A DNA stretch of 64,000 bases from Isoetes taiwanensis (taxonomy: Eukaryota > Streptophyta > Lycopodiopsida > Isoetales > Isoetaceae). Of this stretch, positions 27,149 to 60,324 are shown piece by piece (position 1 is the stretch's first letter; every line of letters begins with the position of its first letter). A program made the translations under genes and the position numbers. The notes under the pieces were generated by a model. That model did no database searches, was not told the DNA's origin, and saw nothing but the letters and a program-made list of their open reading frames with translations. The stretch spans positions 8,709,003 through 8,773,002 of the forward strand of contig JAJEKV010000006.1 in the NCBI GenBank assembly GCA_021234155.1. The letters run 5' to 3'.

Positions 27149-27153
27149 ATAAC

Positions 27154-37304: not shown

Positions 37305-38869
37305 AGTGGCGTTCGGCCAAAGATTATCGGTCCCCTGGGCGTATCTTTGTGCGCCGCTCATCACGCAGCATACCGCCCACTCCGACCGACGTGTACGCCA
37401 ACGGATAGCCAGGTAAGTAGCCCTAGGGGCAACTTGCTAGGAGTGTTCATATATTATTAATGTGCACATGTGCACATTAATGTGGGCACACCTTTCCATG
37501 TTGGCATATTTTGCCACCTAGCCATTAAAGGCAAGTTGGGCCTTTCCAATTATCCCACATGCCAAAATGGGTAATTGGAAACCCTAGCCTAAACCCCATG
37601 TCTATTTAGGGTAGGAAAACCCTAGCTTGCTAGTTTTTAGTCCTTAGGGTTTTAGAGCTTCGGTTTTGGCTGCCCCAGGAGCCAAAACAGCCTCCCGAGC
37701 AGCCGCCTGCGAATTGGCCATCGGTTCCCACAATTGATCAGCCCAAAGAGGATGGTTGAACTTCGGTCGAGGAGGAAACCACTCAAGGATCAGGTATTTG
37801 GTCAATTTAATAGCTTAAACCGTCTTCTAGTCATAGAATCAGTAGGTTTAGACTATTAAATTGCCCATAGCAGCTATCTAGATCTTAGATCTCGGACACT
37901 AACTAAAGAACCTAACTCTATGATTAGATCTAGTTCTTTAGTTCTTCTGTGATGTATTTGGATGATGTATCTCTGTGAACTCCTTGTATTGGGAAGGGGG
38001 GTAGAGGCCCTAAAGCTTGTAGTTGATGCTCCTAGAGTAGCCTCTCTAGCACACTGTAGATTCGGCCTGTGCACAAGAACCACACACCGTGGGTGAAGGG
38101 GCCAGGGCCGGCTTAGAAGGAGGTTAGGTGTTCGACTCTTGAACGATCCCTATGGTGTGTTAGTGCTACCGGGGATCATTGTGACTAGGTCTAATGGCTT
38201 ACCACTGAGTGCGGGTAAGGCATGGGCTCGACACCCGTGAAGTGGTGTACACTTTCCAGTGGGTTCAGTCGAATACGGGCAGTGGCCCTCTAGTCACCTT
38301 GAGTCAGCATGTAGACCTCTGGAGGGAGTGATCCCTACCTGCCCCATCGGAACTGGGGAGATGAAACCCAGGAATAGCCCTTTTGGCTATGCATCCCGGA
38401 GGAGCTGATCGTCCCCCAACACTTTTCACCTACTGCAAAGTGTGCACAGGGGAGGGCGGATGGAGTGGACAACCCTAGGCCATGTTCATATGCCAGCCAA
38501 CTCCATTGCCATGAATTAAATGCGCAATGAACTCTGGAGACCCAAGCCGTCAGTCACTCCCTTGAGTCTGAGCCTTGGGTAGGATTCCCTATGTGATGTG
38601 CTGACCATTGTCTATGCAGATGTTGATATACCACCCCTCTGGGTGGATGGAGGATTCTGTTGGTACTGACATGTATGTTTACGCTTCCGCAGCTAGGTAG
38701 GCCCTGAGGGAGACAGGGTAGAATGACACCTTCACTCTTCCCACTGGGACTCGTTACGGGTGCAGTGATATGTGGAGGGCCCTGTATCAGCATGGAGCTG
38801 GTGTGGGGGAAGAACTCCTGTTTGTATACGGTGAGAGCACCGCACCCCCACGGTAGGGGGGCGTCCGCA
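37305..38869 (+). repeat. Left LTR of the giant element
   Basis: Aligns along its length with 61191-62747. It begins near AGTGGCG (the right copy has TGTGACG) and ends GGCGTCCGCA just before the primer site. Contains a 26-bp perfect palindrome at 37456-37481 (core TGTGCACATGTGCACA) and a promoter-like CTATTTAGGGTAGG near 37602. Minus-strand frames inside it (such as 37874-38083) are identical in both LTRs and are not genes. Confidence 0.88.
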
Positions 38870-38870
38870 G

Positions 38871-38882
38871 TGGTATCAGAGC
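38871..38882 (+). other. Primer binding site (initiator tRNA-Met)
   Basis: TGGTATCAGAGC, complementary to the 3' end of plant initiator tRNA-Met, lies one base after the LTR end at 38869, the expected place for minus-strand priming. Confidence 0.9.
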
Positions 38883-39072
38883 AATGTTCTTGGAGACCAA
38901 GAGCAAAGCACTGGCCATGTCCCAGTAGTACTAACTTGATAGGATCCTCAAGCCTCGAAAAGTGGGAAATTTTTTTCTCATCTTTGTAGTTTATGCTAAG
39001 CTAGTAACAATTAAGTGAATTGGAATTTAACAAGATTAAAAAGAATGAGACAAAATTTTTCCAAGTGAGGTG

Positions 39073-39137
39073 GTCTCCACATTTCGGCGCTGGTCCTTGA
39101 AACTAAATTTTAGTTTTGAAGCGGTAGGCTGTGAGAC
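39073..39137. repeat. Hairpin module copy 1
   Basis: GTCTCC...GCGCTGGTC...AAACTAAA/TTTAGTTTTG...GTGAGAC: an imperfect inverted repeat of 65 bp. Three related copies occur at 39260, 40935 and 41133. Confidence 0.75.
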
Positions 39138-39259
39138 ATCGAATAAGAACACCAAAACATGATGAATTTGAGAAAAATAATGTGGTAAGGCTAATTCTAA
39201 GGTAGGAATTAGTTAGAATAGCATGTTTTAATTACCTAAAAACCCTAGAAATGTATGAG

Positions 39260-39326
39260 ATCTCACAGCTCGCGCCTGGTCGCAAAACTAAACATTAGTA
39301 TTGGAACGAGGCGCAAGCTGTGAGAC
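39260..39326. repeat. Hairpin module copy 2
   Basis: The best-preserved copy: about 24 of 30 arm positions pair (TCTCACAGCTCGCGCC with GGCGCAAGCTGTGAGA). It lies about 104 bp upstream of the TATA box of the histone-like unit. Confidence 0.8.
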
Positions 39327-39429
39327 CAATAGGTAGAAAAAAGTCTGAAATAAGTATAAGTTTTAGCTAAGTTGGTGCCTTAGCATGTTAAACAGAGCAA
39401 CTTGAGTTTTGACCTAAAATTCCCCAAGC

Positions 39430-39437
39430 TATAAATA
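39430..39437 (+). promoter_or_regulatory. TATA box of the histone-H3-like unit
   Basis: TATAAATA, 103 bases before the ATG at 39540, followed by CCCCCCTCATTTTTTCG. The same arrangement (TATAAATAGA then CCCCTCATTTCTCG) recurs at 41391, which argues for a duplicated internal promoter. Confidence 0.65.
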
Positions 39438-39539
39438 GATGTAGAACCCCCCTCATTTTTTCGTCCAAGCCCTAGAAATCCGCTCTTCCCAACTTAGGCG
39501 ATCTTTCGGCGCTTTTATCCGATTGACGATCCGTAAAGC

Positions 39540-40789
39540 ATGGCCCGAACCAAACAGACCGCAAGGAAGCGTCGCCCAGGCGAAACCACCAGCGCCACTG
39601 AGGCGGAGATCATTCGGAAGATGCTTCGTGAGAGGCTCGCGAGAGGGGGTCGTTCGCCTTCGGACGAGGAGCAAGACACGTCCGATCTGATTGATGTCTT
39701 CAACCAGCAGGCGGAGCAGGACGAGGCCACATCACCGAACTCCATGGACGAGGAGACGAGGGAGGTGTATGAAGAAATAGAGCGGGAGATCCGGCAGCAG
39801 GAACAAGCAGAAGACCATTCAGACGCACCCACAGAGATCCTCGAGCAGGATGAGCAAGTGACAGGTCTGGAGCCAGCAGAGGTAGCAGACCTTAGAAGGT
39901 TCATCAGAAAGTACAGAAGAGAAGGGAAGACAAAAAGAGGAAAAGGGAGGAAGAGGAACAAAAGGCAGCAGAAGAGAAGAAGAAGGCGAAAGGGAAGTTC
40001 GTGGCTGGCATAAGGAGAACGGCGGGACCGCCTCGCCAAGGAAGAGGCCGAACCCCAAGATTGTCATCAAGGAGCGGCAACCCGACGAACCCCCAAACCC
40101 CTCCGACGACTCTTCTGAGGAGGACTTCAACCCTAATGCTGCAGGTGGAAGCTCTTCCAAGCACCCAGCGACGAAGAAGGGGAAGTACCCGAAAGCAGCC
40201 GACCCTGAAAGCAACCCCAAAGAAGATCAAGTGCGTAAGGCCCCCGAAAATACCCGGCATGGGATAGAAAGAAGCAACCACGACCTGCCCGGGAAGCCTA
40301 CGTCACCGGATGAGGTGAAGATTTACGAGAGGAAGATGAGGGAGCACGAGGCCTACATGAAGAAATGGGAGGCCTACAACAAATATTATGAAGAAAACGG
40401 GGTCAGTTCATCGAGGGAGGGCGACCAACGGCAAAGAAACCTTAAAGCCGCCACCAATCGGGCCAAAGGTTCCCAAGCCACCACCCAAGAAGAAAGTCGA
40501 TAGGAAGGAGGTGGAGAGAAGAGCGCTAAGGGAGATTAGACACTTCCAACAAGCAGCCTACGGACTTCTAATCCCCCGCCCCTTCGCCTTTCGGTTGAGC
40601 GAGAAGTGATGCAGCCTCTGAGCAATTTTAGAGTCACTTGACGAGGCGCGGGCAATGCAAGAGGCGGTTGAGGCAAAAATAGTGCAACATTTTGAGGATT
40701 CAACAGCTTGCACTATTCACGCCAAGCGGGTAACCCTAATGCGGCAAGACATGAGTCTTGCGAGCCGTATAAAGGGAGAACGCCCTTAG
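39540..40789 (+). pseudogene. Histone H3 / CENH3-like protein with long inserted linker (frame-broken)
   Basis: The ATG at 39540 reads MARTKQTARK: residues 2-10 equal residues 1-9 of mature histone H3, including Lys4 and Lys9. Ser10 is replaced by Arg. A charged linker of about 320 codons follows, with acidic (PPNPSDDSSEEDFNP) and Lys/Arg-rich stretches and a helical EVKIYERKMREHEAYMKKWE. The C-terminus is a histone fold: RALREIRHFQQAAYGLLIPR (from about 40518), then [18 protein letters not shown] and [20 protein letters not shown], ending RIKGERP at 40789. REIRHFQ and LLIP are closer to CENH3, while the RIKGERP end is closer to H3. Normal H3 is 136 residues. Tail, linker and fold lie in three frames, and TGA codons at 40607 and 40619 interrupt helix 1. 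It has its own TATA box. It is not a known gypsy component. A captured host histone gene is the best reading. Confidence 0.8.
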
Positions 40790-40934: not shown

Positions 40935-40999
40935 GTCTCCCAACTTTACCGGGTCGCAAAACTAACTTTTAGTTTTGAAGCCAGGCTAAGTCGTGAGAC
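40935..40999. repeat. Hairpin module copy 3
   Basis: GTCTCCCAACTTTACCGGGTC...AAACTAA...TTAGTTTTGAAGC...GTGAGAC. Same design as copies 1 and 2, but with more mismatches in the outer arm. It starts the second promoter region, 146 bp after the histone-like stop. Confidence 0.75.
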
Positions 41000-41132
41000 C
41001 TAAACAAACTTGACCAAAACAGCTCCAAATCGGCCAAATAAGGGGTCAATTCTGCACCGATTTGATGAGCCCATCACCCTTACACCATCGGTTTACCCAA
41101 ATTAGACAACTTTTGATCGAAATGAGATCGAT

Positions 41133-41202
41133 GTCTCCGCATTTCGCGCTGGTCAAAGAACTAAAAGTTAGTTTTTTGGCGAGGCGCAAAGTCGCGAGAG
41201 AC
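41133..41202. repeat. Hairpin module copy 4
   Basis: GTCTCCGCATTTCGCGCTGG...AACTAAAAGTTAGTT...GCGAGGCGCAAAGTCGCGAGA. The spacing to copy 3 (198 bp) resembles that of copies 1 and 2 (187 bp), so the hairpin pair was duplicated as a unit. Confidence 0.75.
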
Positions 41203-41390
41203 CTCTTACCATTTCTTCACCAGACTTGTCAAAGTCACCTTCAACCTATTGCATAGCATCTTTTAGGTAATCTAGCCTTGTTCAAGCATCCCACATAGTC
41301 CTCAAACTCCCATTTTGACCTCGGATAGGCTAGAATTACCCAACCCTAGGAAATTTTCAAGTCATCCAAAATTAGGGTTTTCCCCTTTTC

Positions 41391-41398
41391 TATAAATA
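41391..41398 (+). promoter_or_regulatory. TATA box of the second internal unit
   Basis: TATAAATA followed by GACCCCTCATTTCTCG, parallel to 39430. The next ATG is at 41512. Confidence 0.6.
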
Positions 41399-41511
41399 GA
41401 CCCCTCATTTCTCGGATAGCACCCTACAAATCGCATACCCCTTCTAGCCAATTTCTCAACTCCTCCGGCGCTCTTGCAACCGTTTGTTACCCTCTTACTC
41501 GCAATTAATCA

Positions 41512-42956
41512 ATGGCAACTTCGATTTCCACCAGATGGTACAGCGCCCGGCTCATATGTCTTGAGGGGACGTCGACCAGAATCTTCCGGATCTTCGGGAA
41601 GGAGGTAGATGTCCAAGCAACCTTGCACCGCAGCGACCCGGCTTATAGTAGAGTCTTGACTGAAGTTCCAAGCTAGGGTAGAACCAGCTTAGTGCAACTC
41701 CCCCTTGTGTAGGCTATTTTGTTCCTAGACAGGTCCCTGAGCAAGATTAGACGATGTCCCTAACATCGCCAAATACCTCACAAACAAAGCGCCACAAGCG
41801 CCTTTGAGCCAATGGTCCTAATCGTCAATAGGACCAAGTACTTCTCTTTCAACACCGCCTTGGCAATCTTTCTTACCCAATTGCGAGAACACCGTGGGGA
41901 AACCTCCATTCCCCCATGGACGTGGACCCATTAGCCATAGCAAAGAGAGCAACGGCTCCTCACCACAGTATGAACAGAGGGCGGGAAGGGAAGGAAGAAG
42001 ACTTAAGAACAGAATCAAGAAGAGGAAGACTATGTCGAGCTCGACCCAAATGGAGGAGCGCGACAAGCAGCAAGAGTGGCAAGACTTCAAAGAAGCCGGC
42101 AGACTCTCAGTCGCGCCACCCTCGGTTAGGCATCACAAGCCTAGCTCCCATTATTGTCGAAGGTGAGGAGTTTACGCTCTAAGCGACATTCAAAACCTCC
42201 CGAGGGGAAAGGGAGTACCGACCAAGAGTTGCTACACCAACTCCGAAAGAATGGACTTGGGCGACTTCATCGTCAGGAGAATCGACTTCCCCTCCAAGTA
42301 AGGGAAGCCGACACTTACACGGGAGAGTTTACCTCCGATATCCAAGCCTCTGACAACATCGGCCGGTTATGGAGGCGGACAAGGCCGAGAACAAGCTACC
42401 GACGGAGGAAGAGTTCCTTGCTCTTGAGAAGCAGATGGGGATCCGCTATGCGACCTCAAACATCCTAACGGCAAGCTCGTCCCGCAGAACCTCCCGGGGA
42501 GAGGGCCGGCCCGATTCGACCTCGGGAGGGCTTCAAAGAATAGAGACTACAGGGAGCTCACCACGGTGGAGGTTGATGACTTGAGAAGCGCATACGTAGC
42601 CGGATACCGAAGTGGTCGAGGACCCGATCCTAGCGAACTCAAATCACTACGGTATTACACCGCCACTGGCGATGGATGGAAGAATAGCGGTTATCCACCG
42701 CAAGTTCACCCCTGGGGCGAGGAAGGAGTATCGCTGGTGATTGCACTCTCGGATTCGCCGCATCATTGCGGTTACCCTTAACACCGAAGTATGCAATCAC
42801 GGTGAAGAGAGCGGTAGCACTCGACGCCTTCGACTTCGCCATACCTTACAAAAGGCAAAAGCAAGACTGCCGGTGACAGCAGACTTATACCCCCCACGCA
42901 TGAATAGAAGATTTGGCAAGAGCATTACAAGGTGGATCTCCACCAATGTCGCTTAG
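41512..42956 (+). pseudogene. Second internal transcription unit, unknown protein (frame-broken)
   Basis: The ATG at 41512 reads MATSISTRWYSARLICLEGT and runs 54 codons to a stop. Further coding-like blocks in changing frames follow: a Lys/Arg-rich part (41894-42180), ENKLPTEEEFLALEKQMGIR (about 42390), TTVEVDDLRSAYVAGYRSGR (about 42560) and LKSLRYYTATGDGWK. I do not recognise the family. It lies between the histone-like unit and gag, with its own hairpins and TATA box, and an AT-rich 3' flank (43040-43110) with polyadenylation-like words. It may be a second accessory gene. Because frames change often, the boundaries are approximate. Confidence 0.4.
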
Positions 42957-43199
42957 GAACTTGGGCCATTCATTAGGAACGGCCCAAGTGAAAAAAAGTT
43001 CTGGAGGACAATCCATCTTACCGGCACAACCGGGAATGATTAGCCGTAGTTGTAATTTCTCAGATTAGCGTAATATAAATATAAATATAATATTCTCTTG
43101 CACTATAAATGTTTTGTTGATATATTTTGTGTCCCCCCCTAACCATGCCAACAAACATAAACAATCCAAGAAAACAAGGAAAACTAACCATGTAGCTAT

Positions 43200-44464
43200 G
43201 AACCGCTTGTGTATGCGACTAGAGGCCTAAAGCCGGAGGAGAACGACAAGCTACTTGGAACTTATAGAGGAACAGAGTCCGCCAGCCACGCCGGACAAGG
43301 AACCCTTGAAGAATTTGGACAAATGACCCGGAAGAAGAAATATCGCAAAATGAGGACGGACCTCTCGAACGGATAAAGGCTTTGCTAGCCGCTGCAAAGC
43401 GGGAGCGGTTCGGTGGGTAACGCTCAACTGCCGCAAGCATCATTTCGGAGAAACGGTAGAGACAGGAAAGAGCAACAAGAGAGGAAGGTCCCAGTTGGAC
43501 TCCTCGATTCAAGCTCGATTCGGACTCGGCCCGGGAGGAAGAAGAAGAGCGTAACCAAGACCCAAACACGATGGAAGGCGAGGAACGCCCGGACGGACGA
43601 CAAAGGGACACAAGAACCTCGACTACCGGGGAGAAGAAGGTAGATTACGCGACCGGGCAATGTATGGAAGGCCCGAATCTGAACAGTTCGGGGAGAACAG
43701 TGTCGATTATTAAAGCGAGAGGCATGGCTGGACCTAAATGAGTGAATGCGGCAATGCTTATGGCATGAAGGATAAGGACAAAGGTAGAGTGGCAAATGAC
43801 CAACTTGAAAGGAGCGCCACGAATTTGGTGGAAAGGTTATGCAAAGGCACATGGCTTAAGCGGGGATGCTTGCGGGTTCAAGAAGTTTGCTAAAGCCTTC
43901 AAAGCGCCATTACGTTCCAAAGAGAGCACAAGTCCAAGATGATCACGCCCATTCTGACGGTTTGCGGCAAGGCAACAAGTCGAGACACGAAATACACCTG
44001 AGGAATTTATGAGGCTAAGGTCAGATGTGCCAAAGTTAGGTGAGAAGCATGCGGTGGAAAGCTACATTGAAGGTCCGAATGAGGACATCCGCAAGTTTGT
44101 AAGGGCAATAAACCCTAGAACAAGATGTCGAGGCGGAGTCCAAGGCAATAAGCTTGCAAGGAACAGGGACCTCGGAATAGCGGCGAGGCGGCAGCGATAT
44201 TACCAAGATAAAGGCAAGGCGTGGCCGGTTTTAGCGGAGGAGGACCGGCCGGGACCCAAATTAGAGCCCCATATAGTGGCAATCAAGGGAAGCGGCGGGG
44301 AGAAGAAGCGGAGTGTCTTTCAAAGACAAACGAGAAGGGTCAAACTACTCCAAAGCGGTCGCGATCCTTTCTGCGAGCCATGCCCAAGGAAAAGAGAGCG
44401 AGAGTGCATAGAAAAAGCGGCTTTGCTTTCATTGCTTCCAGCCGAAAGCCATAGGGCAAAATGA
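43200..44464 (+). pseudogene. Gypsy gag (frame-broken)
   Basis: Structural capsid/nucleocapsid protein of the element. Seen: TNLKGAPRIWWKGYAKAHGL and SGDACGFKKFAKAFK (about 43795-43905), then in another frame FMRLRSDVPKLGEKHAVESY and IEGPNEDIRKFVRAINP (44009-44110), followed by RDLGIAARRQRYYQDKGKAW. These are conserved gag blocks of plant gypsy elements. A zinc-knuckle remnant CFHCFQP lies near 44424. The upstream limit is uncertain, since 43200-43780 is charged, low-complexity and in several frames. Confidence 0.75.
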
Positions 44465-44679
44465 ACCCCATATGTCATGAGTCAAATAAGCCAGAGAGTT
44501 GGGAGATTGGGACACTCACCGACGACGGCGGCGGCCGAGGAGGCCCGCGACTACATTCGGGTGAGTGTCATATCTTTGCCGCAATAGATCTGAGCAAGCA
44601 GAGAGCCGGTATAAAGTAATTTCCATTTGCGATTAGGAAAGGCCAAGGCCAAGTCATTTATAGTCCCCGATAGATTCTG

Positions 44680-45020
44680 AAGTAGCCATAACTTTGCATC
44701 TCCCGAATGGTTCAAATGTTGAAGTTGAAACCATTAAAGTCAAAGCCAAGGCCCGTTGTCTTAGCAAGTGGAGCGATAAAGGCGGGGCGGTAAAAAGAAT
44801 CAACTTTGACATCGACTTGCAGGGATTAAGATCCGGATAGGGGCGGAAGTAATGGGCATCGGCAAAATCACGACTTGATAATAGGTATGGAGTACCTTGG
44901 ACCAGCGAGGGCCATTATTGATTGTGGAAAGCGGAAGGTGACCTTCCGGCACCCGACGACAAGATCATTGAGATAACAGGGTAAAGAAGTTGTTCCCATC
45001 ATGCGGTGTATGTCTTCTAA
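44680..45020 (+). pseudogene. Gypsy aspartic protease remnant
   Basis: INFDIDLQGL (about 44798), followed in other frames by DLIIGMEYLGPARAIIDCGK (about 44873) and RKVTFRHP, which is the C-terminal half of a retroelement protease (I-G-M-x-x-L then A-I-I-D-C). The catalytic D(S/T)G was not found with confidence. It continues toward RT. Confidence 0.55.
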
Positions 45021-45299
45021 ACGCATTTGTTCAAGTGCATCAAGAGTGAGCAAGTGGCATACATCTTCAAGCTTGAGAGTAGTGAGCGGAATTGGAAGGA
45101 AGCAAAGAAGACAAGATGCTCAGCAAGTTGCCGAGGCAAATAGCTAAGTTGATCCGCGGAGTTCCACGATCTCTTTCGGATGAGATCAAGCAGCTCCCTC
45201 CTTATAGGGGAGTCGAGTCGCGAGATAGCACTTTCGAACCGGGAACAAAACCAACAAGCAAGGCTCCATATAGAATGACAACGCAAGAGTTGCCGAGTT

Positions 45300-46569
45300 T
45301 GAAGCGATTGCGGGAGCTGCCGACCTAGGTTTCATTAGACCTAGTGTCTCGCCGTTTGGAGCCCATTCTTTTTGTCAAGAAGAAGGATGGATCTTTGAGG
45401 ATGTGCATAGACTATAGGCAGTTGAATAAGCACACCATTAAGAACAAGTATCGCTTCCAAGATCGGGCGACTTGATGGATCAGCTTCAAGGAGCAAAGAT
45501 CTTCTCCAAAATCGACTTAAGGCTCGGGTTATCATCGATCGGATAAAGGAGGAAGATATCCACAAGACCGCCTTCGGACGCGGTATGGGCATTATGAGTT
45601 CCGCGGTAATGCCTTTTATCTATCAAATGCCCCTCAACGTTCATGAGGCTCATGAGCGATATCTTGAGGAGTTCCCGGACACCTTTGTGATTGTTTTCTT
45701 TGATGACATTTTGGTGTATAGCGAGATCCCTTGAAGAGCACGTGCAACACTTGAGAAAGAGTGCTAGAGAAGTTGAAGAGGCACCAGTTATGCGCCAAGT
45801 TGTCGGGCGAAGTGCCGCCGCCTAGCGAGAAAGGTGGAATACCTTGGTCATGTGATCTCGGCGAAGGCATCTCGGCGGACCCCGCCAAGATTGAAGCAGC
45901 TGATTCGATGGCGGCACCGAAGAATGTGCATGAGGTCGGAAGTTTTCTCGGGCTAGCGGTACTCTGAGAAGTTCGTGAAGAACTTTGCTAAGATAGCAGC
46001 CGTTAACACCGACGGCGGGCGAGAGAAGGTGAAAAGATTGGGTAGAGCATTGGCACAAGAAAGCCCAAAAGGGGTTTGAATTGTTGAAAGAAGCTCGATG
46101 GCACTGCCTTGACCTTGCCGGACCGGGAGAAAGATAAGCTTGTAGCAACAGATCGCGAGTAAGATAGCTACAGTGCGGTGCTTATGCAAGAAGAGCGGCG
46201 TGGTAGCATATGATTCCAGAAGATGAACGACGCCAGAGCGCCACCAACGACGATCGGGAATTGCTTGCGGTTGTCAGGGCATTAAGAATATGGAGGCACT
46301 ATCTCTTGGGAAGGAAGTTCCAATTGGATACCGACCATCAGAGCCTCCAATATGTATTCACGCAACCACACCTTAATCTGAGGCAGCGGAGATGGATGGA
46401 GTTCCTCGAAGAATATGACTTTGATATAGTCTACAAGCCGGGGAAACTCAATGTGGTAGCAGATGCGCTTTCAAGGCATCCCTTGACAACTAGAGTGCAT
46501 TGCAATGCAATTTCGACGCTCTCCAGCAACTTTGGTAAGAAGATTGAAGAGTCCTTAAGTCGTATTTAA
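45300..46569 (+). pseudogene. Gypsy reverse transcriptase and RNase H (frame-broken)
   Basis: [22 protein letters not shown] (about 45383-45440), [17 protein letters not shown] (about 45473) and the active site VFFDDILVYS (FFDD at 45696-45707). RNase H: an intact frame 46210-46569 with [33 protein letters not shown] and the end block [19 protein letters not shown] and RNase H are separated by several frame slips, although every block is present in the right order. Pol is interrupted after RNase H at about 46557, where inverted repeats start. The integrase resumes at 58.8 kb. Confidence 0.85.
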
Positions 46570-46739
46570 TTAAAGTGGGACAAATCTTGAATTTTGGAAC
46601 TCGGACTGAAAATGGGACTCACACACCATAAAAGAAATTTCTGAATTGATTGCTTGAATAGAATTACACATGACACACATAGAATTGGGTTACTTGTTTT
46701 CCTCATAAATTTTACAAACCAGTAGTTGAGAAAGTTTTC

Positions 46740-49440
46740 AAACTTCTCAATATTATGCACCCTCATACAATGATATAGCATGGAGGTTGCTCATGGCCTT
46801 GTCCATCTCCTTTCTTGGGATCTTGTGTGTGTTGTCTTTTGCAATGTGAGAACTTGGATATGACCATACCACACACTCCACCAATTCCCTCCTTTGAGGG
46901 TCGGCATAATTTGGCCTCCACTTCTTCTCCCAAAGCCGATCGGTGTATTGCTCCTTCAAGTTGCCCTTCTTGTGCCTCCCAATGGGCTCCCAATATTGAA
47001 TTTGGAATCGGGGCGCAAACTCCTCTCCATCGGGCATAGTGGTGGTCACATCGAGAGAGTGCCACCCCTAACCATATTGGGCCGGTCCTCATCATCGGGC
47101 CTTACTAGCACAAAGTATCCTTCCTTGATGTCCTCAAAGGGATCCCACTCGGGAAGATCAAACCACTTCGGCTTTGAGGCCTTACTTCCCACAAACCACT
47201 TGGGACCCAAGTGAGCATTCTTAGACGTGCTTGCACCTTGAGAACCCTCCCATCTTGACTCGGCAGAACCCGTCTCTTAGCTCCCTCCCACATGGGTACA
47301 TTCGGTTTCTAAGCATGTCACAACTTTCTCGATGACTTGATTAGGGAGTCCATTTGATTTTTCTTAAGAGTGGAGGTGTGCTTTCCATTTCGAACATCAT
47401 CCCAAAGGCGTTATGTAATCCTTGATGCCCTTCACCCGGTTGGCTAGAGTCTTTGACTGTCTTGAAGGGAGGTAGTGGTTTTGGCTACCCTTTAGGAATG
47501 AGAACTTCACCAAAGAAGCACCCCTTTGCCACAACTTCGATACCTTGTGCACAGGCATCCACAACTTGTCACTGGTCTCCACTTATATTGCATGATTGGT
47601 ATTCCATCCCTAACCCAAAACTTGAATTGAAGTGGCTTTGTGTGTCTGTCAACCTGGTCCTTGCCATCTAGCAAGTATCCTTCTACAAATGATTTCCAAT
47701 CGCAACCTCATCCATCAAGAAAGCCATTGGGTTGGGGTCAATGCAGCTCTCAAACACATCCATTAGTTCGGGGAGAATGGTCACGTTTTTCTCTCTTGAG
47801 CTTGGTGGAGAAAGTTCAAAGAATCCATCTATATCATCATGCGTATGCCCAACCATCATGAATCCCACTTTCACAACTTTGAATACTCCCACTGCCAAAG
47901 TATGACATTGCCCCAAACATCCATCTATTCTTGTTTTCTTTCCAACGGTTGTCCAAGCGAACACATAGCTCCTCGGTGATTTCTCAAGTAAGGGGAAATC
48001 ATCCCAAGTCCTCCTTGATTCACTAGACACCTTGGATGTGAGCTTTTTATCGCCTTTGGTAACAAAGCGGTTGATCATCCATCAAAGCCTCAAAAATGGG
48101 TCTTTGAAGGGAATACCTCCTCCCTTCTATCGTTCCTTTCTCTAGTGTTCTCAAGCACTTGAAAATAGAGCTCACATGGAAGTTTGGATCATCTCTCCAT
48201 AGATCAAGCACAAAATGACCATATGTTCCAGTTCCATGACCATGTGTTAATACACCCGGACTTACTTTCATCACGAAAAGTTTTGACAACGCTTGGGTAA
48301 AGGATCTAGCTTTGGCAAGAAAGTCTTGTGTTGGTCCATCTTATCATGAATTATACACAAAAATTTGTCCTACCGCATCTCGAGGAAAATGTTCTCCACT
48401 TTGCCAATACAACTGTCTACATGATATTTGGTCCCTTTGGTGATCTGCAAATTGCTCCCTAATTGCCATTCTTTCTTTTCTATTGCGGTTGATGCAAGTG
48501 TATCCTTGAGTTGAATGCAAGTGTTGCACTTTGAGAATGGCATGTGTTGTAGGACACTCACGTCCAGAAGTGAGTGCTCCATAACTTGCTGAAATGTGAT
48601 TGAGAAAGAGGCCTACCTCCGGTAGTTTCTAGGATGGAGTTGACCTCCTTAAGGCACTCCTTTTGGATATAGTGTTGTGGCAACACTCTTTTGCACCACT
48701 ACGCACAGGTGCTCGTTCTGCTCGACTTGTGGGGCATAGATTGAGACATGTATCTCACAAAGCTCTCTAAGAGCTGCAATGGCCTTTAGAGTATTTGCTC
48801 TAGGTTTCAAAGTGAGTGCATTACCATGTTGGAACAAAGTGTGCCCTTTTCTAACCTGCTCCCAAGATATCACGTAAAATGAAGACTTGCTCACCCCAAG
48901 AATCCATCTCAATGCTCTCATACATACCTTCATTCCCCTCAATTGATATAGCGGTAGTCTGTGTTTTCATCATAGCCGGAATTCCTACACAAGGAGTAAA
49001 TGAAATTAATCCTATCTTTTTGAAGTTGTCCAATGTATTGGGACCTTATCCAAGACGAGGTCATCCACATTGTAATGCACCTGTGCAATCTAGGTTGCAA
49101 CACTCTTGTCCCCTAATTGCCTCGGGTTTTCTTTGGTTGGTGCCATACTTTCCATCCTTTCTAAATATTTGTCACTTCTAGGCCTCTTGGGCACCTTTGG
49201 CTGCCTTTTATGAAAGACATAAGCGTCTCTTCCTTGTGATCAAAGGATGCTCATCGACCACCAAATCTTCCACATGGCCTTGGGTGGGCCTTGGGGTGTG
49301 TAGTTCAGTGGGGCATTCTAGAGTATCACCATTCTTGTGTGTAATAAATCTAATTGGCCATCTCAACTGAGCTTGGGACTCCGGCACCACTGAGCACACA
49401 ATGCAATCACTAGAGCTTCCCTAGGACATGATAGTATCAA
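46740..49440 (-). pseudogene. Antisense DUF7869-like gene (frame-broken)
   Basis: Read on minus, blocks in order: CVVPESQAQLRWPIRFITHK (about 49390), AISIEGNEGMYESIEMDSWG (about 48960), SKCNTCIQLKDT with a CxxC pair (about 48520), a REQFADHQRDQISCRQLYW block (about 48440), CIIHDKMDQHKTFLPK (about 48340), GVLTHGHGTGTYGHFVLDLW (about 48230), FAWTTVGKKTR, then VGFMMVGHTHDDIDGFFELS (about 47840). It ends with a charged tail to about 46750. The KCxxC..., MDQ-KT-LP, G-L-HG and GHTHDDID series is the signature of DUF7869 proteins, which are of unknown function and often found in multicopy, transposon-like families. Several frame changes break it. It runs opposite to pol. Confidence 0.6.
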
Positions 49441-50880
49441 CCCGATAAGAAGCTTCACAATGCCAACTCCAAGATGTTCATCTCCCAACCTCTCATCATT
49501 CACACTATCAAATGGATCAAGCTGCGGTTATTATGCCCTCTGCAAATACCCGTGCAGTTTGCAAGGGTGCAACAAAAGGCAACCCATCTTCCTCCATTGG
49601 AGCCTAGGGCAATGGCCTCCTTTGGACTTCCACGGCTCCATTTTACTCATCTCACATGCTCCCCGAATGAAAAAGCTCACATTAAAACCATATAGCCCCA
49701 AACACCACAAATATGACCATATGAACCATATAAAACCATACAAACATATTAAATATAACCATATTAAATCATACAACCATATTAACTAAAATCATATAAC
49801 CATATTAAAGCATACAACCACACTCATTCTAAACCATATGTGAACATTGTAACCATATATACCATTGATACTATTCAACCATTGAAACCTTATTAAATAC
49901 ATAAGATAACATATATAAATATATAACCTACCCTTTCATATCTTGGCATGGCCCGCGTGGCGCCTCTTGAGAGGTTTGAAACCGTTACCCGTCGGCTAAA
50001 TCCTTTGCGTCATGGAGGGCATGGCCCACACGTGACAATGGTTTTATATTATTGCACTTTTACGAGGGTTCGGGGGTGCGGCCCGATTAACTTGCACCCT
50101 CTTCCTCTCCCCCACCATTCTTCCTCCCCTGTTTTCTCGATCACTCTTGAGCTCCTGTTTTCCTTAAAGCGCCCGCTTTTTCGATAAAGCGATCGATCGA
50201 GCAACCGAACGATTCCAAGGCCATCTTATGACAAAGCAGCTTGGTCGACGGATCGGGGCGCTTCCAGCAGCCAGAAGTTCTCGCCTTGATTCATTGTTCG
50301 GCGGGCATTACCTTTGAGAAGAAAGTGAGGCCCTTTTTAGTCTTTGCTTTTAGTTTTACGTAAGTCGTTTAGTGCATTTTTACTTATATTACATTTGTTA
50401 GAGGCTCTTATTAATCCACGATACAATTTACTGCCCGACAAATCCTTATTCACGCTTTGCCAACGACTATACCCACATGGAAGCGAACTTCGGAAGCCTC
50501 CTCCTCATCCAACAAATCTTCGGGTATGTTTTTGTAATATCATACCCTTTTTAATCTCATTTTTTCTATCTTGTTCTCCAACCATTCTGCATTTGTTCTC
50601 CAATTTGTTCTCTTTTTCTCATTAATCTTTGTATTGTTTTCTGTTTTTTGTGATCTTTTTCTTGCTTGTGGTTGAATTGAATACATTGTATGCGGGCACA
50701 AGTGAGAATAGTGGTTAGAGTAGTAGCAAACAACCAAGATAGAAATCATCGGTAGACCTGGTGTTAGGAAGTAAGATATTGCGAGCATTAATGTAACATA
50801 ACTAGGAATGTCTTTCTCCCGCAAGAACTAAGAATAGGAATTGCTTCCGCGGAATCTCCATTTCTAACTCACGGCAAATC
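49441..50880. other. AT-rich spacer inside the insertion
   Basis: 49680-49920 is built from repeated ACCATAT/CATATTAA-type words (low complexity). 49950-50880 has short frames without a family signature. Confidence 0.4.
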
Positions 50881-52360
50881 CAACTGCGGGGAGACATGCG
50901 AGAAGGGAGTGGCGAGTTGAGAATACTTCACTTTGCCAGCAGTCCGGGAAGTACAGGCCTTCTTCTCGACTCCCGAGTCGAGAACTTCTCTCTTCAGGCG
51001 GTAGAAGAGGGAGTGTACACTGGACCATTGGCGGAGTTGAGGGATTCTCGACTTCATGACCGAATTGCACGGCTACCCAATGTCTTCACATTCTTTAGAA
51101 CCCTGCTGCAGCCTTCTCGACTTCGTGAGTCGAGAATGTGATACTACCAATGGCTCTTTGTGCGGTCGCGGAGTGCCTCCACCCACCCGAGCCACTCTCC
51201 TTCAACCATGCTCGCCGAATATTGCGAAGAGGACCGGCTCCGGCCGGGTGGAGGCCTCGGCGACTAACCAGCGAGTCTTTGGCGGCTTTCTCGACTTCGT
51301 GAGTCGAAAAAAACGCTCTAGTGCACTCTAGAGCTGGCTGCGGAGGCGATCTCAACCACTCTCCTTCTATCTTCCTCGGACATTGCGAGAGGGAAGTGGT
51401 TTTGGCCGTCTGCAGCGCCAACTCTTAGCAACCCAATTCTCTGTGTGTGGTCGCAAAGGCCTCTACCCAATCAAAGACCGTCTCCTTGAACCATCTTCGT
51501 CGAATATTGCGGGGATGGGCTCGATTGGTGGAGGCCTCGGCGACTAACCACGAGTTGTGCGGCTGCTTTCGGCTGGTGAGTCGGCTTGAAACTCTAGTGC
51601 ACTCTAGTGACTCTGGCACAGCAGGCAGTCTTAAACACTCTCCTTCTATCTTCCTCGGACATTGCGAAGGGGGAAGTGTTTTTTGACCGCCTGCGGGCCA
51701 ACTCTTAGCAACCCAATTCTCACATGTGTGGTCGCAGATGGCCTCTACCCAATCAAAGACCGTCTCCTTGAACCTTCTTAAAATTGAATATTGCGAAGGG
51801 GATGGGCTCGATTGGGTGGAGGCCTCTACAACCAACCACTTGAAACCACGAGCTTGTTGTATGCATTCTCGGCTCGCTGAGTGGGAATGCCTCACCCAAC
51901 CGCACTCCATGTGTACTAACCGGAGTTCGGATGGCCAAGGCATTCTCGACTTGCGGTCGAGAATGTAGACGAGAAGCCAAGCATTCTCGACTCGCAAGTC
52001 GAGAATCCCTTAACCGACCAATTCTCCTGCATTAATGCGGTAGCGATTGGCCTCGACCCGGTCGAGTCACTCTCCTTGAACCATCTTCGTCCGAATATTG
52101 CGAAGGGGAGGGACTCGGGGGGTGGGAGGCCTTTACAACTAACCACGCGGGGAAACCACGAGGAAGCCAAGGCTTGCATTCTCTACAAGTCTTGCACTTT
52201 CTATTCTCTGTTTTTAGTCCCAAGTGCCTCTAGCACATGCGAGCCACTCTCCTTGAACCATCTTCCTCGAATATTGCGAAGAGGAGTGGTTGGACAGTGG
52301 AGGCCCCTCCGACTAACTACAAGAGGATGCATTTGAACCGCATCTCACGGGCCTTAGTCC
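50881..52360. repeat. Tandem, hairpin-bearing repeat array
   Basis: Units around 51170, 51450, 51735, 52045 and 52210 share GTCTCCTTGAACCATCTTCG, GAATATTGCGAAGGGGA and GGTGGAGGCCTCGGCGACTA. In the clearest units the flanks pair: GCCTCTACCCAATC before and GATTGGGTGGAGGC after. A larger period of about 285 bp links 51365 and 51658 (ATTGCGA-GGGAAGTG...AACTCTTAGCAACCCAATTC). Degraded copies of the CGACTCGCGAGTCG palindrome sit between units (for example near 50970, 51118, 51290, 51943, 51987). Frames reading through are not genes. Confidence 0.7.
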
Positions 52361-53435
52361 TAGCACGATCTATGTACAACATTCCAAGTAAACAGTCCAT
52401 GAAAAACACACCTAAAAGCGGGCTGTTCTTTACCCCGATCAATGTTTCCTTGCCGAGCATCTCTCAACCTAGAGAGTAAATCATCTCGAAGCTGAAAAAT
52501 CTTTGGACAAGGAAACACTTGAATCCGTCGAGCTTATCAGCAGTTCCATTATTTAAACACATCGGCATGTTCTACAAGCGAAATAACATAGGCATCTCTG
52601 AAACTCACCTCTTCCGCGTAATTCCTTGGGCCCTTTGTATCCACGGATCCCATGACCTCACCCGAGTCTTTGCTTCTTACATCCGGTCTCTTCAAGAGTG
52701 TATTAGCATCTAATACTTTCAGATCAACTGCGATTCTCGCGTATCCCCTTTCCATGGCGCCCTTGATGTAGAGTTCGATTGTCGGCGGCTCCTCTCCGCT
52801 TCCTACCTTAGCTCCGTGCTCATCGATCAAATCAAGCTGCTTGCAATAGGGCCAGCGGTCGGGGAAAACACACATATGCAAGGCATTTGTTAGCGGCTTA
52901 CAGCGTCGCGGCGCCATTCCGGAAGTCGCTAACGGTCGATGATCCCCTCCGACCTCGAGTTCCCCAATGCGCGGGGAAGATAAACTTCACGCTCCACTCA
53001 CTTAGTCCCTTGATGTGATTAAATTTGAAATAGTGTTTGGGGGGCTAAAGCCGGCCGTCTTTGTACCCTTAGCCCGCTTTTTTTCATAAATGATTGCATG
53101 TCCTTAACTTCAAATTAAAAGAACACGCCCGATCTTTTTTTACATGCAGTCCTAAAACTCACAATGCTTGCGGAGGAAACTTAATTTCTGAGTGGTCAGA
53201 AGAGGATGAGAGGGCATACACACATGACTCCGTCCAAGAAGCGGGCCGGAGGATGCTTACGCCAAGCGGCAAGAAGAAGAAGACAAACACCCGGGTAAGC
53301 TCGAGGTTTTCTTTTGTCGGAATACTTTAAGCGATCCATCCTTTCTTCTTGCGGCATTCACCTCGGACTCACTTGGTGATCAGCGGCGAACTCCATTCTT
53401 AGTCATCGAGGGGCTGGAGCGAGCTTCTTGAAGCA
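52361..53435. other. Spacer before the plus-strand coding segments
   Basis: Minus frame 52549-52917 (122 codons) contains GSGEEPPTIELYIKGAMERG and is not recognised. No motif supports a gene. Confidence 0.3.
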
Positions 53436-54529
53436 ATGGCCGGTTCTTGGTGGTATGTCGAGGTATCGACAAGTGGGAAGGAGAAAGATCATTTCTACAC
53501 CAAAGGGACAAGAAGAGCTCCGGAGACAAGTACAAGAAAATCGGTGTTGTGCTCTCGTCTGCGCCCGGTTAAAGCATTTAACACTACATGTCGAGGGCTG
53601 CCGGAAAGAGTAAGTTCTATCGCCGCGAAAAAATTAGCGGTTTCAAATTATTCTCACTCTTCCATGAGCAAGGCTAAGGGCACCCGAAAAAAGGGCGCCT
53701 TTAAATTGTCGAGAACCTTGGGTGGAAGGATGCGGAAGGGATGAAGGAGGCGGAACCCTAACATCCGGGGAGCTTGGTATGGAGATTTCGAGTCGGGGAA
53801 AAGCTGTTCAATACGGGGAGCTTCACTTCTCTTGTCTTTGAAGACTCTACAACACTCTGCGGTGGGGAATGTTGTGGTTCATACACAAAAAGTCCACCAA
53901 AAACAAAGATGGGGATGATGACACCACCACGGGAGGAATCGGATGACCGAAGGAGACGAAGATATGGTCGACTCCCCAAACCTCGATCCGGATGATCGAT
54001 CAGGATTTCACAGAGAGGGGCCGCGAAAATGGAAGCGTCTAGCTTCGGTATTATCCGTTGGGAATATCACACACAAACTGCTGCTTCTTTGGACATTAGG
54101 CGGCTGAAGGTTTGCACGGGAGATGCCGTCTTGTTCAACCACGGGAATTTAATCCAGGCACACATCTTTGGAGATTCTCGAACCGATGGTGCGACATCTG
54201 TTCGCATCCAATGCCTGCGGATGTCATACCTTTTAGCGAGTCGGCAATGAGTTGTTCACCGGAAGTCCGAGGAAGATCTGAAGGGAAAAGAAGTCCGGTT
54301 ACGGGTTGTAGGCGGTCGGCGATTCGATGAGGCGGCTCAAGTATTGCGAGCGGAGAAGGAGGTGCCGCAAAGGATCAAGGATAGATATGCCAGCGAGAGT
54401 CGCGAGTTCTTTCGGTGGAGCGCCCGAACTTAACCGGCGGGCGGCATTAGCCACGCTGCGGAACACAATAGCGGCGAGTGCCCGCCTCACGTAAGGTAAA
54501 TAACTCTCTGAATCTTTCCATTCTCACTT

Positions 54530-54905
54530 CGCTGAAGTCGAAAGCCCCGCCATCCTAACATTTGCCGATTATCACTTTGGGGTTTCGACTCGCGAAATCG
54601 AAAGCCGAAGTAACCTGAGAAAATCAAAGGATGTGGAGCTTTCGACTTCGCGAGTCGAAAACCCTTAGCCGATAAAAAGAAAATTAGACATTCAAGGGAC
54701 TTTCTCGACTTCGCGGTCGAAAAGCCTACCATCTAACATTTGCCCGATTATCATCGGAGTTTCGACTTCGCGAGTCGAAAAGCGAAGTATCTGAAAAATC
54801 AAAGGATCTAGAGCTTTCTCATTCGCGAGTCGAAAAACCGAAAGTAAAAGAAAATTAGACATTCAAAGGGACTTTCTCGACTCGCGAGTCGAAAACCGAA
54901 CTACT
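54530..54905. repeat. Tandem repeat carrying palindrome copies
   Basis: Two units of about 190 bp: AGAAAATTAGACATTCAA, CATTTGCC-GATTATCA and CAAAGGAT-T--AGCTTTC recur in the same order. Each unit holds two to three copies of the CGACTTCGCGAGTCG palindrome. Confidence 0.7.
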
Positions 54906-57758
54906 ATTCTTGTTTATTCCGGGTGTTTGTATATACTTTCATGCTCGACATTGGTACATTATCCGAATGCAGCCCCTATCTGACGGATCATACCGCGCTA
55001 GGCAACGATGGGAAAGCATTGGGTTGTCCTCGGCCCTAAAGGAAACGTGGGCTCCCTCGGATAAGTGGAAGACCTTTGAAACTATCTTGGATATGTTCTG
55101 CTGGAGGGACGAGGAAGATGGCGAGGGAGAGGAAGAAGAGGAGAAGAAGAAGAGAACACCAAGGAAAGGCGGGGAGTCTCTCTCGGACCAATATGACCTC
55201 AATGGAGAAAATGGACTGACATATGGGCTCAATGGACAAGAGGCAAGGCTGAAGGACAGCAATGGAGAATTTCCAAGCGGGCGGACCCCAAGTTGTTTGA
55301 CAAGCGGTTCATGAAGAGGATCTGAGGGGCCTCACGCGGACAAAAAACGCTTGACCTACAAGGCAAAATCTTGGAGGGAACAATCCTGGCGAGGAAGACC
55401 AGGAGTTCTAAATTGCGGGGCGCAAAAGATTATGCCCACGATCCTAAAAGCGGCGGCGTCGCGTTAGAAGAAGGCATCCGCGAGGTTACGCAGCGTTGCA
55501 TCTAATGAATACCATGATTTTGATTATTACAAGGAAAAGGCTGCCCTTGATGAGGAAGACATGAAGGAATTGAACCGTCTATGTCAACCCTACATCAACA
55601 CCAAGGCTGAAGCGTAGCGTCAAAACCCTTCCTTTCCCCTGAGCGTGCTATGGCAATTCGAAAAGGAAGCTTGGATTCGGGGGTGGTCCCATTTAAAAGT
55701 GACGATAGCTCCCCCCATTTACGGTTACTTTGGGACACAAGGGATTTGGTGATGCAGGCCTTTTTGACCCGTGGCACTATTTTCCATCAATATGATCGAA
55801 GACCCCACCCTTTTTATGACAAAGCTGACATAGAAGCGGTGGTACAAGGCGTGTCACGGACATGACCGACTGGATACTTTCGGTTTCCTTGTCTTTTTTG
55901 CATGCGGGCAATCAAACAACTTCTTTGTCTCCCAATGGGCGGTGATATTAACTTCACCAACAAGATCATGCACTCCATATCACGAACTTGATCATGAGTG
56001 CGGACTTGGCTTGCCCGAAGGCACCAAGCTTTGCCAACATAGTTTTGGTTTTGATTTCAAGATCGGTGGTCGACTGGATAAGTGGTGGTCTAGCGAGCAT
56101 CATTATCTCGACAAGTTCATGATCTCTCAAGAGCGAGATGGAACCACGGAAGGGGGGGTTTATGGAGGATGTTCCATCGATGGACAAGGTCAGCAAAGAT
56201 GGTGCGACCGGTCCTATACATAGAATTCCTATCCGGCCAAGAGTTATCAAGTACTTCATAACCAGCTTGGTGGGGAAGATCAAATTGTATCGCGAGTGGT
56301 ACATGAATGGCCTGTTCTCTCGAGGGGGCTATCTTTGTATGGAATGAAACCTATATCCGTGGTTGGAAATAAGGACATGGTTGAAACCATTCAGTCATAC
56401 ACGGATCTGCTTCATGAGCATTTCAAGGGAGGAAGACAAATGGAAGCGATAAAGGCGGCGAGGGCGAGGGAGACAAACGGCGGAGGCGAGGATGTCGAAG
56501 GTTTGGACGAGAATCTTTGCCGAAAACATTATTGAAAACACGAGATTGAGGTGAGTTTACTTTGCTCTATCGGTGTTTCTCGACTTCAGCGAGTCGAGAA
56601 AACTCGTTCCTTTCAATACCTTTTCTTTTCATTCTCGACTTCGCGAGTCGAAAAACTCGTTCCTTTTCGCCGGATGTCATCATTTCGAGGGAATTCCAGC
56701 TCAACGAGTCGGGATCATTGTCATTTGGCGGCGGTTCCGCGGCGCCGAGGAGAATGAGAATGAAAATCTGAGCAAGACAACGCTCCACGACCGAAAGAAC
56801 ACGAAAAGATAATGATCCCGCATTTGGATCCCGATGAACGGAAATATGGTCGAGAGCCAAACTCCAAGCGGGATCCGGTGGTCCCCACCAAGCTTGTAAT
56901 ATTTGGCGTCAATGGAGTATTAGGCTGCGGTATACCACGACAAAGACGTCCCGAGATTAACACCTCATGAGATCCCAATGAAAGCGAGCATAAAATAGTG
57001 TATCCGAGGCCTAGAGCTAAGGAAATTATTGGCTGGTGCACGCACGGGATTTGAAGTGGGCATATGGTCTTGTATGGCAAAGAAAAATATTGTCAATGTT
57101 CTTGGTGTTCTCGGCATTTCAGTTTTGAAGTTCAAGTTCGTTTGGAGAAACGAAAGGGTCGAGCATGTGAAGGACCTCGATCCGGCCATCACAAAGGGAA
57201 GCCTATAATGGTGAAAAGGCTGGGCCGGGGTTTATGAGCAATTCGGGACTATGGCAAACACAACAACGCTGATCATAGGCGACTCCGCCTACAAGTGCTA
57301 TCATAGCAGCGCAAAAATACAATCATTGCTAAGCCATATCGACCGAAGAATATGAGACGGATAGGTGGTTGTCCTTGGGACTCATGTCTGTCTTGGCGGA
57401 ATCCCTCTTTGCCATTCTTGTCGCCCGATGTGCTTACGAACTATCCGAGCCTCACGGAACCCGATCGAGAGAGCAAGCCGATCATGAAAGCTATGGACGA
57501 CAAATACTTTGGTGAACAAGAAGAGTGACCCTTGCTTTTCGATAGTCAAATTGTGTGAATATTGTAATCAAAGCGTGAACACATGTATTGACCATTTTGT
57601 AATGAATATACTTGTATATTGAGTTTTGATGCCTTTCTCGACTCACGAGTGAGAAAGGCATGCTTGTCTGTTGATGAAACCATTTGTATGTTTGATTGTG
57701 TCACTAGATGCAGCCACAATCTATTATGATAATGCTTGTACATTGGGTTTCACGGGCC

Positions 57759-57782
57759 TTTCTCGACTCGCGAGTCGAGAAA
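57759..57782. repeat. Perfect 24-bp palindrome, best copy of a dispersed family
   Basis: Core CGACTCGCGAGTCG flanked by TTTCT and AGAAA. About twenty variants occur between 50.9 and 58.7 kb, for example near 51987, 54640, 54760, 54873, 56578, 56633, 57635 and 57890. All lie outside the recognised coding blocks. Confidence 0.8.
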
Positions 57783-58834
57783 AGGCATCTTTAATTTTCT
57801 CGTTGACAAAAGCATTTGTATGCTTCCGTGTGTGTGATTGGATGCAACCATATTCTAATGAGTATGGTTGTACTTTGACTTTACGGGCCTTTCTGATTTC
57901 GAGTCGAGAAAGACACTACTCCCCGTCATTGGATGCGGTTGTATGGAATGAATGTTCTCCGTTGTAATTTGATTTCAACGTTCTTTTCTTCGTTTTGACT
58001 AATGACACCGTAATTGTTAATCATACTCTCCTTGCTCCGGTGGTTCGGCCACGGATCCGACACCAGCGCATCCCCGCTCGAGCATCCACGAGAGACCGCT
58101 CCAGGCGGCACGGATCCCGCTCAAGGCGGAAGAAATACCGTTAACAGCACGATTCGATCCACGCTACACTCTTGCCCGGCCTTTGGGACAAGGTTGCTCG
58201 CGAATTCGAGAGGTTGCTCGCTACACCACAGGGATAAAGAACGGCGAAGAACAAAGAGAGACAGTCCAACAAGCTCAAAGCATCTTGCAAGCATTGCATA
58301 ACATCCACGGAGGGTGGGGAAGGAGCATATTCGATGAAAGGCTGCGGGAGGCGAAAGTGGAGAAGTCGGGTGGGCAGGGCGGCGGTAGCTCGAGGCACCT
58401 CCACGTGAGGCATTCCACACTCTTCGGGTTGCCCCAAGGCTTCGAGGCGGCATGAAGAAGCGCCACAAGTTAATCCCCTAAGGTGGACCACCTACCAAGA
58501 TGATGTAATGTAGTGACAAAGCCAAGACCGCCATGGTCTCTGCGTCCGATGTAAAAATACATTGTATCTGCTCAATTTATTAATAAAAATTCTTTTTCAA
58601 CTAGATCTTTGGTTTCAAACTTTAATGAATTTCCTTTGTTTTTGGTTTGCATTGTTTTTGTTCTCGACTTCATGAACACAGGAAAAGCTGGAGCAAAGCT
58701 TCGGATTCGAGTTTTATTCAAAAATTCGAATTTAGGATAGTTTTCGGTCGGGGGTGCTACTTTTATGTAAAATTACCGGGGTTCGAAAAAAAATGGGAAT
58801 GGAATGAGTCCCACTTCAATTAAATCGACTTCCT

Positions 58835-59870: not shown

Positions 59871-59879
59871 AAGATCAAG

Positions 59880-60324
59880 GTGAAGCGGCGGCTTCGAGTT
59901 GGGAATTGCAAGAAGCTTGCTCCAAAGGTTAGGCGGACCTTCGGAATAGTCGAGAGAGTAGGTAATCAAGCCTACAAGCTAGACTTGCCGGACACCCTAA
60001 AGATTCATAAGGTCTTCCATGTGAGTTTGTTGAAGAAGCACACTCCAAATCCGGGCGAAGTCTTGGACACTCCAACGTTGTTGGAAATGACAGAGGAGCA
60101 ACGGTGGAAATAGTTCGAAAATGATTCTTGATAAAGCTTTCAAGAAGACAAGGAGGTCGGAGTTCCTCCAATACTTGGTCAAGTGGAAACACTTGCCCAC
60201 GGAAGACGCGACGTGGGTACTTAAGAAGGATTTAGTAAAGCGGTACCCACGGTTTATGGAGCAATGGGACGGCAAGGTCATCTCCAAGAAATCGGCTCGA
60301 GGCATGTCGATTTCGCGAGGTTAA
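59880..60324 (+). pseudogene. Integrase C-terminus and chromodomain
   Basis: First frame (59880-60113): KKLAPKVRRTFGIVERVGNQ, then AYKLDLPDTLKIHKVFHVSL and LKKHTPNP, the usual pre-chromodomain block. Second frame (60121-60324): MILDKAFKKTRRSEFLQYLV, then KWKHLPTEDATWVLKKDLVK, a chromodomain (LVKWKxxP--DATWxxxxDL). Family knowledge: such domains can bind methylated H3 tails and steer integration to heterochromatin. A one-codon gap/stop (TAG at 60111) separates the frames. The combination with an H3-tail-bearing protein in the same element is notable. Confidence 0.8.

Follow-up and report, generated by a model that had tools for sequence, protein, structure and literature searches.

A chromovirus lineage in the genome of Isoetes taiwanensis appears to have captured a canonical histone H3 and to have maintained it, behind a long N-terminal extension, as a nucleosome-competent variant; on the basis of sequence comparisons we assign this reading a probability of about 0.55. 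The H3 gene would thereby have come to form the C-terminal portion of an accessory protein, termed ORF1, between the primer-binding site and gag. The lineage is represented by a decayed copy in a stretch of 64,000 nucleotides of contig JAJEKV010000006.1 (assembly GCA_021234155.1), hereafter called the window, to which all coordinates refer unless a relative is named.

The histone-bearing chromovirus of the window

The window element is a decayed Ty3/gypsy chromovirus of 25 kb with two LTRs. The 5′ LTR (37305..38867, +) and the 3′ LTR (61191..62745, +), both with approximate ends, were delineated by their mutual alignment, in which 37364-38842 and 61245-62725 are 94.0% identical over 1507 bp. 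The primer-binding site TGGTATCAGAGC, which we take to be of the initiator-Met tRNA type, was read from the sequence at 38871..38882 (+), and the 3′ LTR begins directly after the polypurine tract AAGGTGGGGAGAA. The decayed region from the gag capsid to the protease (43799..44866, +) was recognized by tblastn with the gag-pol of the relative L025 (28.7% identity, 2e-17), the RVP_2 profile scoring 0.03, under its cut-off. Reverse transcriptase (RT) and RNase H lie in broken frames at 45101..46569 (+; RT 47% identity, RT_RNaseH 6.5e-16); the RVT_1 profile is weak (0.014), and RT and protease are clear by tblastn with the pol sequences of relatives. Between RNase H and integrase, pol is split by a nested insert of ca. 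12.3 kb (46561..58844, no strand assigned), as indicated by mapping of the L018 pol, whose residues 911-1100 fall on 46000-46560 and 1106-1189 on 58845-59108, with five residues between. Because this pol maps to both sides of the insert, the element would measure ca. 13 kb without it; L018 itself spans ca. 13 kb, from a 5′ LTR starting at its position 129 to the end of the 3′ LTR at position 3363 of the adjoining stretch. The nested insert contains a DUF7869 match on the minus strand at ca. 47.7-48.0 kb. Integrase pieces with an SH3-like Tf2-1 domain (58845..60041, +; SH3_Tf2-1 9.6e-19 and tblastn; H2C2 at 0.0033, under its cut-off) are followed by a chromodomain (60124..60270, +; Pfam Chromo 2.3e-9 and alignment to HP1).

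Paired LTRs, primer site, polypurine tract, gypsy gene order and a chromodomain after the integrase thus all mark the element as a chromovirus. Plant chromoviruses (PMC6317226) share with it the LTRs, a primer site of the initiator-Met type, the gag-PR-RT-RH-INT order and the position of the chromodomain. In contrast to these, the Isoetes element has additional genes inserted ahead of gag, behind the primer site, and the first of them ends in H3. We know of no described chromovirus that carries a histone.

ORF1 of the window copy begins with an ATG at 39540 (+), which opens MARTKQTARKRRPGE... in a frame of 157 codons. Its first ten residues, MARTKQTARK (39540..39569, +), agree with the H3 tail in 10/10 positions and have a homologous start in L025, while the best tail match in 20 shuffled windows reached 5 or 6 of 10 residues. 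The exact H3 tail at an ATG, and its occurrence beyond chance, both claimed in the first-pass annotation, are therefore confirmed, and a chance origin is ruled out; searches of the tail stretch against PDB and Pfam returned nothing useful. The charged linker, estimated beforehand at about 320 codons, indeed separates tail and fold by ca. 318 codons (39570..40522, +, by frame reading). The H3 fold (40523..40789, +) is real: phmmer against PDB matches H3 at E 1e-14, Pfam Histone scores 2.9e-11, over its cut-off, and tblastn gives 7e-15 for H3.3 (40523-40783), 2e-13 for Arabidopsis CENH3 and 6e-11 for human CENP-A. Tail and fold had been described as one unit, of which the fold stands and the continuity does not, since tail (39540-39923), middle (40015-40401) and fold (40442-40786) occupy three separate frames, with in-frame stops inside the fold. 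Because of these breaks the window copy makes no tail-linker-fold protein; it is dead. No H4, H2A or H2B was detected in the window by tblastn at 1e-3.

The position of the unit between primer site and gag was likewise given correctly, except that a second unit, at the ORF2 position (ca. 41.5-43.0 kb), intervenes before gag. This decayed ORF2 position (41390..43000, +), with a TATA-like box at 41390, was assigned because relatives have their ORF2 at the corresponding position; the stretch has no Pfam match at E 10, and homology to the relatives' ORF2 was not found at E 0.01. Both units are preceded by a pair of palindromic modules of ca. 65-75 bp each, one pair upstream of ORF1 (39070..39330, +; cores ACTAA-n-TTAGT at 39102 and 39287) and one upstream of ORF2 (40935..41210, +; cores at 40961 and 41160), and these are the only four sites of the pattern on the plus strand of the window. 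Each pair is followed by a TATA-like box CTATAAATAG and the two ORFs have similar leaders, that of ORF1 occupying, together with its box, 39429..39539 (+). The arrangement suggests, without proof, that ORF1 and ORF2 are transcribed separately from promoter-like units. The pattern is absent from the 20 relatives scanned, and the modules are thus perhaps particular to the subfamily of the window.

The differences between paired LTRs are clustered in three elements, those of the window, L023 and L011, where clean runs extend over 206-308 bp and exceed 500-1000 random placements; in simulations (n = 500) the runs proved longer for the LTR pairs of L023 and L011 and not for those of L018, L019 and L024. 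Such clustering may reflect conversion or consensus error. In view of the clustering, the frame breaks of the window copy might be assembly errors; relatives in the same assembly have long open frames.

Relatives in the Isoetes taiwanensis genome

In a profile search of the 1,658,258,908-base assembly the best 150 of 8705 loose histone candidates were scored, and the following counts rest on these 150 and do not represent a genome-wide count. Fifteen are host-H3-like, matching from profile position 2, and the eight of them inspected as L001-L008 all show MARTKQTARKSTGG. A stop inside the match occurs in five of the 150. Thirty of the 135 others were opened, comprising 20 loci chosen for long frames (L009-L028) and ten sampled at intervals along the list whatever their frame (L034-L043), which were fetched too short for gag. 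By tblastn at 1e-5, the H3 core is present in 30/30, preceded by the N-terminal part of ORF1 in 29/30 (missing in L041) and accompanied by ORF2 in 29/30. Among the long-frame loci the N-terminal part was found in 20/20, H3 in 20/20, ORF2 in 19/20, gag in 18/20, RT-RNase H in 13/20 and gag or pol in 19/20; the corresponding values of the stepped set are 9/10 for the N-terminal part, 10/10 for H3 and 10/10 for ORF2. Gag gave no match in L009 and L012, the latter being devoid of gag or pol matches within 10 kb. In L011 (3879-4151) ORF2 is missing and gag follows directly after ORF1; ORF2 may be dispensable or may have been lost by deletion there.

Upstream of ORF1, 14 of the 20 long-frame loci have an exact primer site, which is 613-761 bp from the ATG in 12 of these 14; the distance is 1332 bp in L025, and L028 has no clear ATG. 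A second LTR copy downstream was found in all five elements followed (91.1-96.7% identity), and the polypurine tract, by exact pattern, in three of them. The data support the assignment of the H3 gene to the element, and independent copies with intact frames were found to have it, as expected, behind the primer site (primer site in 14/20, ORF1 open in 18). The broken window copy alone would be compatible with a single capture event or a pseudogene that does not serve the element, as the first-pass annotation had envisaged in case the histone were confined to this copy. Against that stand the H3 in 30/30 opened loci, the long open frames and the purifying selection described below; recurrence and open frames rule out a one-off pseudogene for the family, so that this hardly credible explanation holds at most for the window copy. 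Searches of viral contigs for the fold, RNase H and the tail pattern, and of prokaryote genomes, revealed no relatives, as expected of plant-free collections.

ORF1 and ORF2 proteins

An ORF1 open from the family-type methionine to the end of H3, 411-459 codons long, is present in 18 of the 20 long-frame loci; this methionine is absent in L015 and L028. In L013 the stop after H3 is lost, and its ORF1 was trimmed after H3 for comparison and dN/dS analysis. The protein begins with a conserved N-terminal part of ca. 205 residues, continues with a charged linker and ends in the H3 core. The three ORF1s tested all match Pfam Histone over the cut-off (L025 9.4e-42, L023 8.3e-42, L024 1.2e-41), and the N-terminal part has no Pfam match. 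AlphaFold predicted ORF1 with a confidence of ca. 70-90 over much of the N-terminal part and a low one over the histone part, and a fold search with the model gave no match at E 0.001. According to their starts the 18 ORF1s were divided into the classes A (MPRFK or MSRFK, 12/18), B (ME.., 5/18) and C (MANTK, 1/18); the subfamily of the window is referred to as D. ORF1s of A and B are ca. 43% identical overall, with nearly identical H3 cores. ORF2 is a conserved protein of ca. 450-480 amino acids for which none of the three sequences tested matched a family, and its predicted model was too poor for a fold search. Across subfamilies, the ORF2s compared (L014, L018, L022, L023, L025) show 44-81% identity to that of L014.

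Phylogeny of the H3 core

In a tree with comparison H3 and CENH3 sequences, the A-C cores form one group inside canonical H3 with a support of 84/81 (not starred). The window fold sits on a very long branch and takes no firm place in this tree or in a smaller one; the best tree has a split that leaves it together with the CENH3 sequences (75/76, not significant), and the AU test does not reject a constraint that unites it with the remaining element H3s (p-AU 0.347). Its plain identity is nearly equal for both, 41/86 for rice CENH3 and 40/86 for H3. The CENH3 label proposed earlier is not supported, as LLIP and RHFQ are those of the window copy, and the 18 ORF1s, which read LIRR, LIRK, LLRK or close variants, group with canonical H3. 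A CENH3 origin and the suggested bias of the element towards centromeres are likewise unsupported.

Conservation and selection

The 18 ORF1s and host H3 agree without exception in 65 of the 98 columns of the core. Among 13 DNA-contact positions, 12 are kept in 18/18 and one in 17/18 (R63C in L013), and nine H3-H3′ positions are kept in 18/18 throughout; these counts cover the 18 ORF1s. Such constraint, in which R63C is the single departure at the DNA-contact and H3-H3′ positions, fits a protein that has to reside in nucleosomes. Median dN/dS values (Nei-Gojobori, pairs within a subfamily) amount to 0.16 for the N-terminal part, 0.23 for the linker and 0.03 for H3 within A (66 pairs, with 27, 15 and 0 saturated-dS pairs, respectively, left out of the dS median) and to 0.12, 0.09 and 0.02 within B (10 pairs); almost every comparison across subfamilies has a saturated dS. 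The low H3 values are partly due to ascertainment and biased downward, because the loci were picked by histone score, and the values of the N-terminal part are free of this bias, though long frames were favoured. Judged by these ratios, strong purifying selection acts on the H3 core, in part an effect of ascertainment, and maintenance of the core for a nucleosome function appears very probable. The readable H3 in many copies suggests that the element profits from it by building or disguising chromatin.

ORF1 might also serve to compact the DNA or RNA of the element within the particle or en route to the nucleus, by analogy with the role thought of for DNA-virus histones. The first 205 residues of ORF1 are net negative and the following linker and core net positive in 18/18, and nucleosome-like particles are built from the histones that giant DNA viruses encode (PMC11500106). 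Nevertheless, such packaging is very unlikely to be the main role, given that an H3 without H4 leaves the retention of the H3-H3′ and DNA-contact surfaces unexplained and that the window encodes no detectable partner histone.

Tail states and possible functions

Alignment of the 18 A-C ORF1s on the GGK-like motif places a proline at the K9 position in 18/18, and an ARKS motif is found in 0/18 of the upstream stretches; the A-C H3 is thus without K9 and K27 contexts. Its tail is not bare, since K14 is kept in 18/18 and RTK in some copies. Position 36 is lysine in 1/18 (L017, ungapped count), position 90 is leucine in 18/18, and position 87 is phenylalanine in 13 and histidine in five (all B), the latter as in plant H3.3. 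A modifiable H3 tail comprising K4, K9 and K27 was accordingly not found in A-C, and the window copy has K4 and K9 only, no H3-like K27 stretch being seen.

In the nucleosome-competent variant that we favour, the ORF1 protein would pair with H4 and enter nucleosomes, most likely on the element's own DNA. Nucleosomes containing A-C ORF1 would be refractory to the usual silencing marks because the K9 position and ARKS are lacking. This anti-silencing use, deduced from the tail states, is a tentative suggestion. It is countered by the subfamily of the window, which keeps ARTKQTARK at the very N-terminus and whose fold is diverged and broken; in D, the K4/K9 tail lies far from the fold and may serve as a tail mimic too. 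In a more elaborate and rather doubtful version, element DNA would be wrapped in home-made nucleosomes, with an H3 lacking K9/K27 contexts, delivery by the host H3.3 route and the N-terminal part as a tether, so that new copies would escape heterochromatin, and the group II chromodomain might read these nucleosomes and steer integration.

Alternatively, ORF1 might act by histone mimicry as a decoy for writers and readers of H3, above all in the subfamily of the window, where the exact MARTKQTARK precedes the long spacer. A second, decayed D start occurs in L025, ca. 639 bp downstream of an identical primer site and behind a matching leader (68% identity to the window over 743 bp), and its R-T-K codons differ from those of the window at third positions only. 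However, the next codon of this L025 tail is changed and the frame then shifts inside the tail, the A-C proteins have no free N-terminal tail and yet an almost unchanged fold, and a decoy would need the tail alone and no nucleosome contact residues. Mimicry is therefore regarded as unlikely to be the main function. L025 (29-2600, +) is a mosaic in which a D-type LTR, with a stretch 81% identical to the window's subfamily, the primer site and the decayed MARTK start lead into an A-type ORF1 and element.

A chromodomain is recognizable by sequence in L018 and L019 as well as in the window. Aligned to HP1, the window domain keeps W45 and not Y24 and Y48, and only the W45 cage position is kept in L019, too. 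Group I, the H3K9me readers, was excluded since the three aromatic cage residues are not present as a set, only the W45 position being kept; with one of three cage aromatics the window domain reads as group II by the criterion given in PMC3350952. The ligand of group II is described as not found in PMC3350952 and PMC12786077, and the H3 of ORF1, if the protein is made, would be a candidate partner for such domains.

One may consider that the ORF1 histone marks integration sites or partners the group II chromodomain, at the centromere or at the element's own clusters. To our knowledge, plant elements with group II chromodomains carry no histone, and the grouping of the A-C cores with canonical H3 leaves a CENH3 kinship unsupported. 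The presence of the domain in three elements, of a group with a partner described as unknown (PMC3350952, PMC6317226, PMC12786077), speaks for targeting, but the domains of this group are described from many plant elements (PMC3350952). We consider targeting quite unlikely as the primary role and retain the nucleosome-competent H3 variant as the preferred reading.

Relation to known systems

A search of the open-licence literature, preprints aside, yielded no retroelement-encoded histone among the matches listed. Large Ty3/gypsy elements of Phalaenopsis, an orchid, likewise bear a host-type gene as an additional ORF, in that case with an AlkB domain of an RNA demethylase instead of the core histone of the Isoetes element (PMC9289625). 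Core histones are also encoded by the mobile or viral genomes of DNA viruses (bracovirus H4, giant viruses), as described in the review PMC9145170, in whose main text the terms retrotransposon and retroelement do not occur. In contrast to the DNA viruses, the carrier here is an LTR retrotransposon with H3 only and a long N-terminal part ahead of it. With CENH3/CENP-A the element H3 shares a long or diverged N-terminus and, in the window copy, RHFQ and LLIP, whereas the relatives retain the letters of canonical H3 and a C-terminus of the H3 type. Through its exact ARTKQTARK the subfamily of the window resembles the histone mimics of viruses (reviewed in PMC10208167); in distinction from these, the whole H3 fold is present here as well.

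Provided that the protein is made, no earlier core histone in a retroelement is known to us, and a transposon would here directly have appropriated the nucleosome, the means by which hosts silence it. The question whether transposons resist silencing by replacing histones thereby becomes testable.

Additional features of the window

On the minus strand, 31434-34088 contains an open frame of 885 amino acids. Its product has a kinase domain and, in mid-protein, several hydrophobic stretches, together with a B_lectin match that stays under its cut-off, and looks like a lectin-multipass-kinase protein. An ORF at 13315-14346 has a DUF659 match (1.5e-6, under its cut-off) and is transposase-like. 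LTR-like fragments are located at 26522-27794, and a second chromovirus RT fragment, 46-49% identical to the pol of L025 and L018, lies at 28215-28694 on the minus strand.
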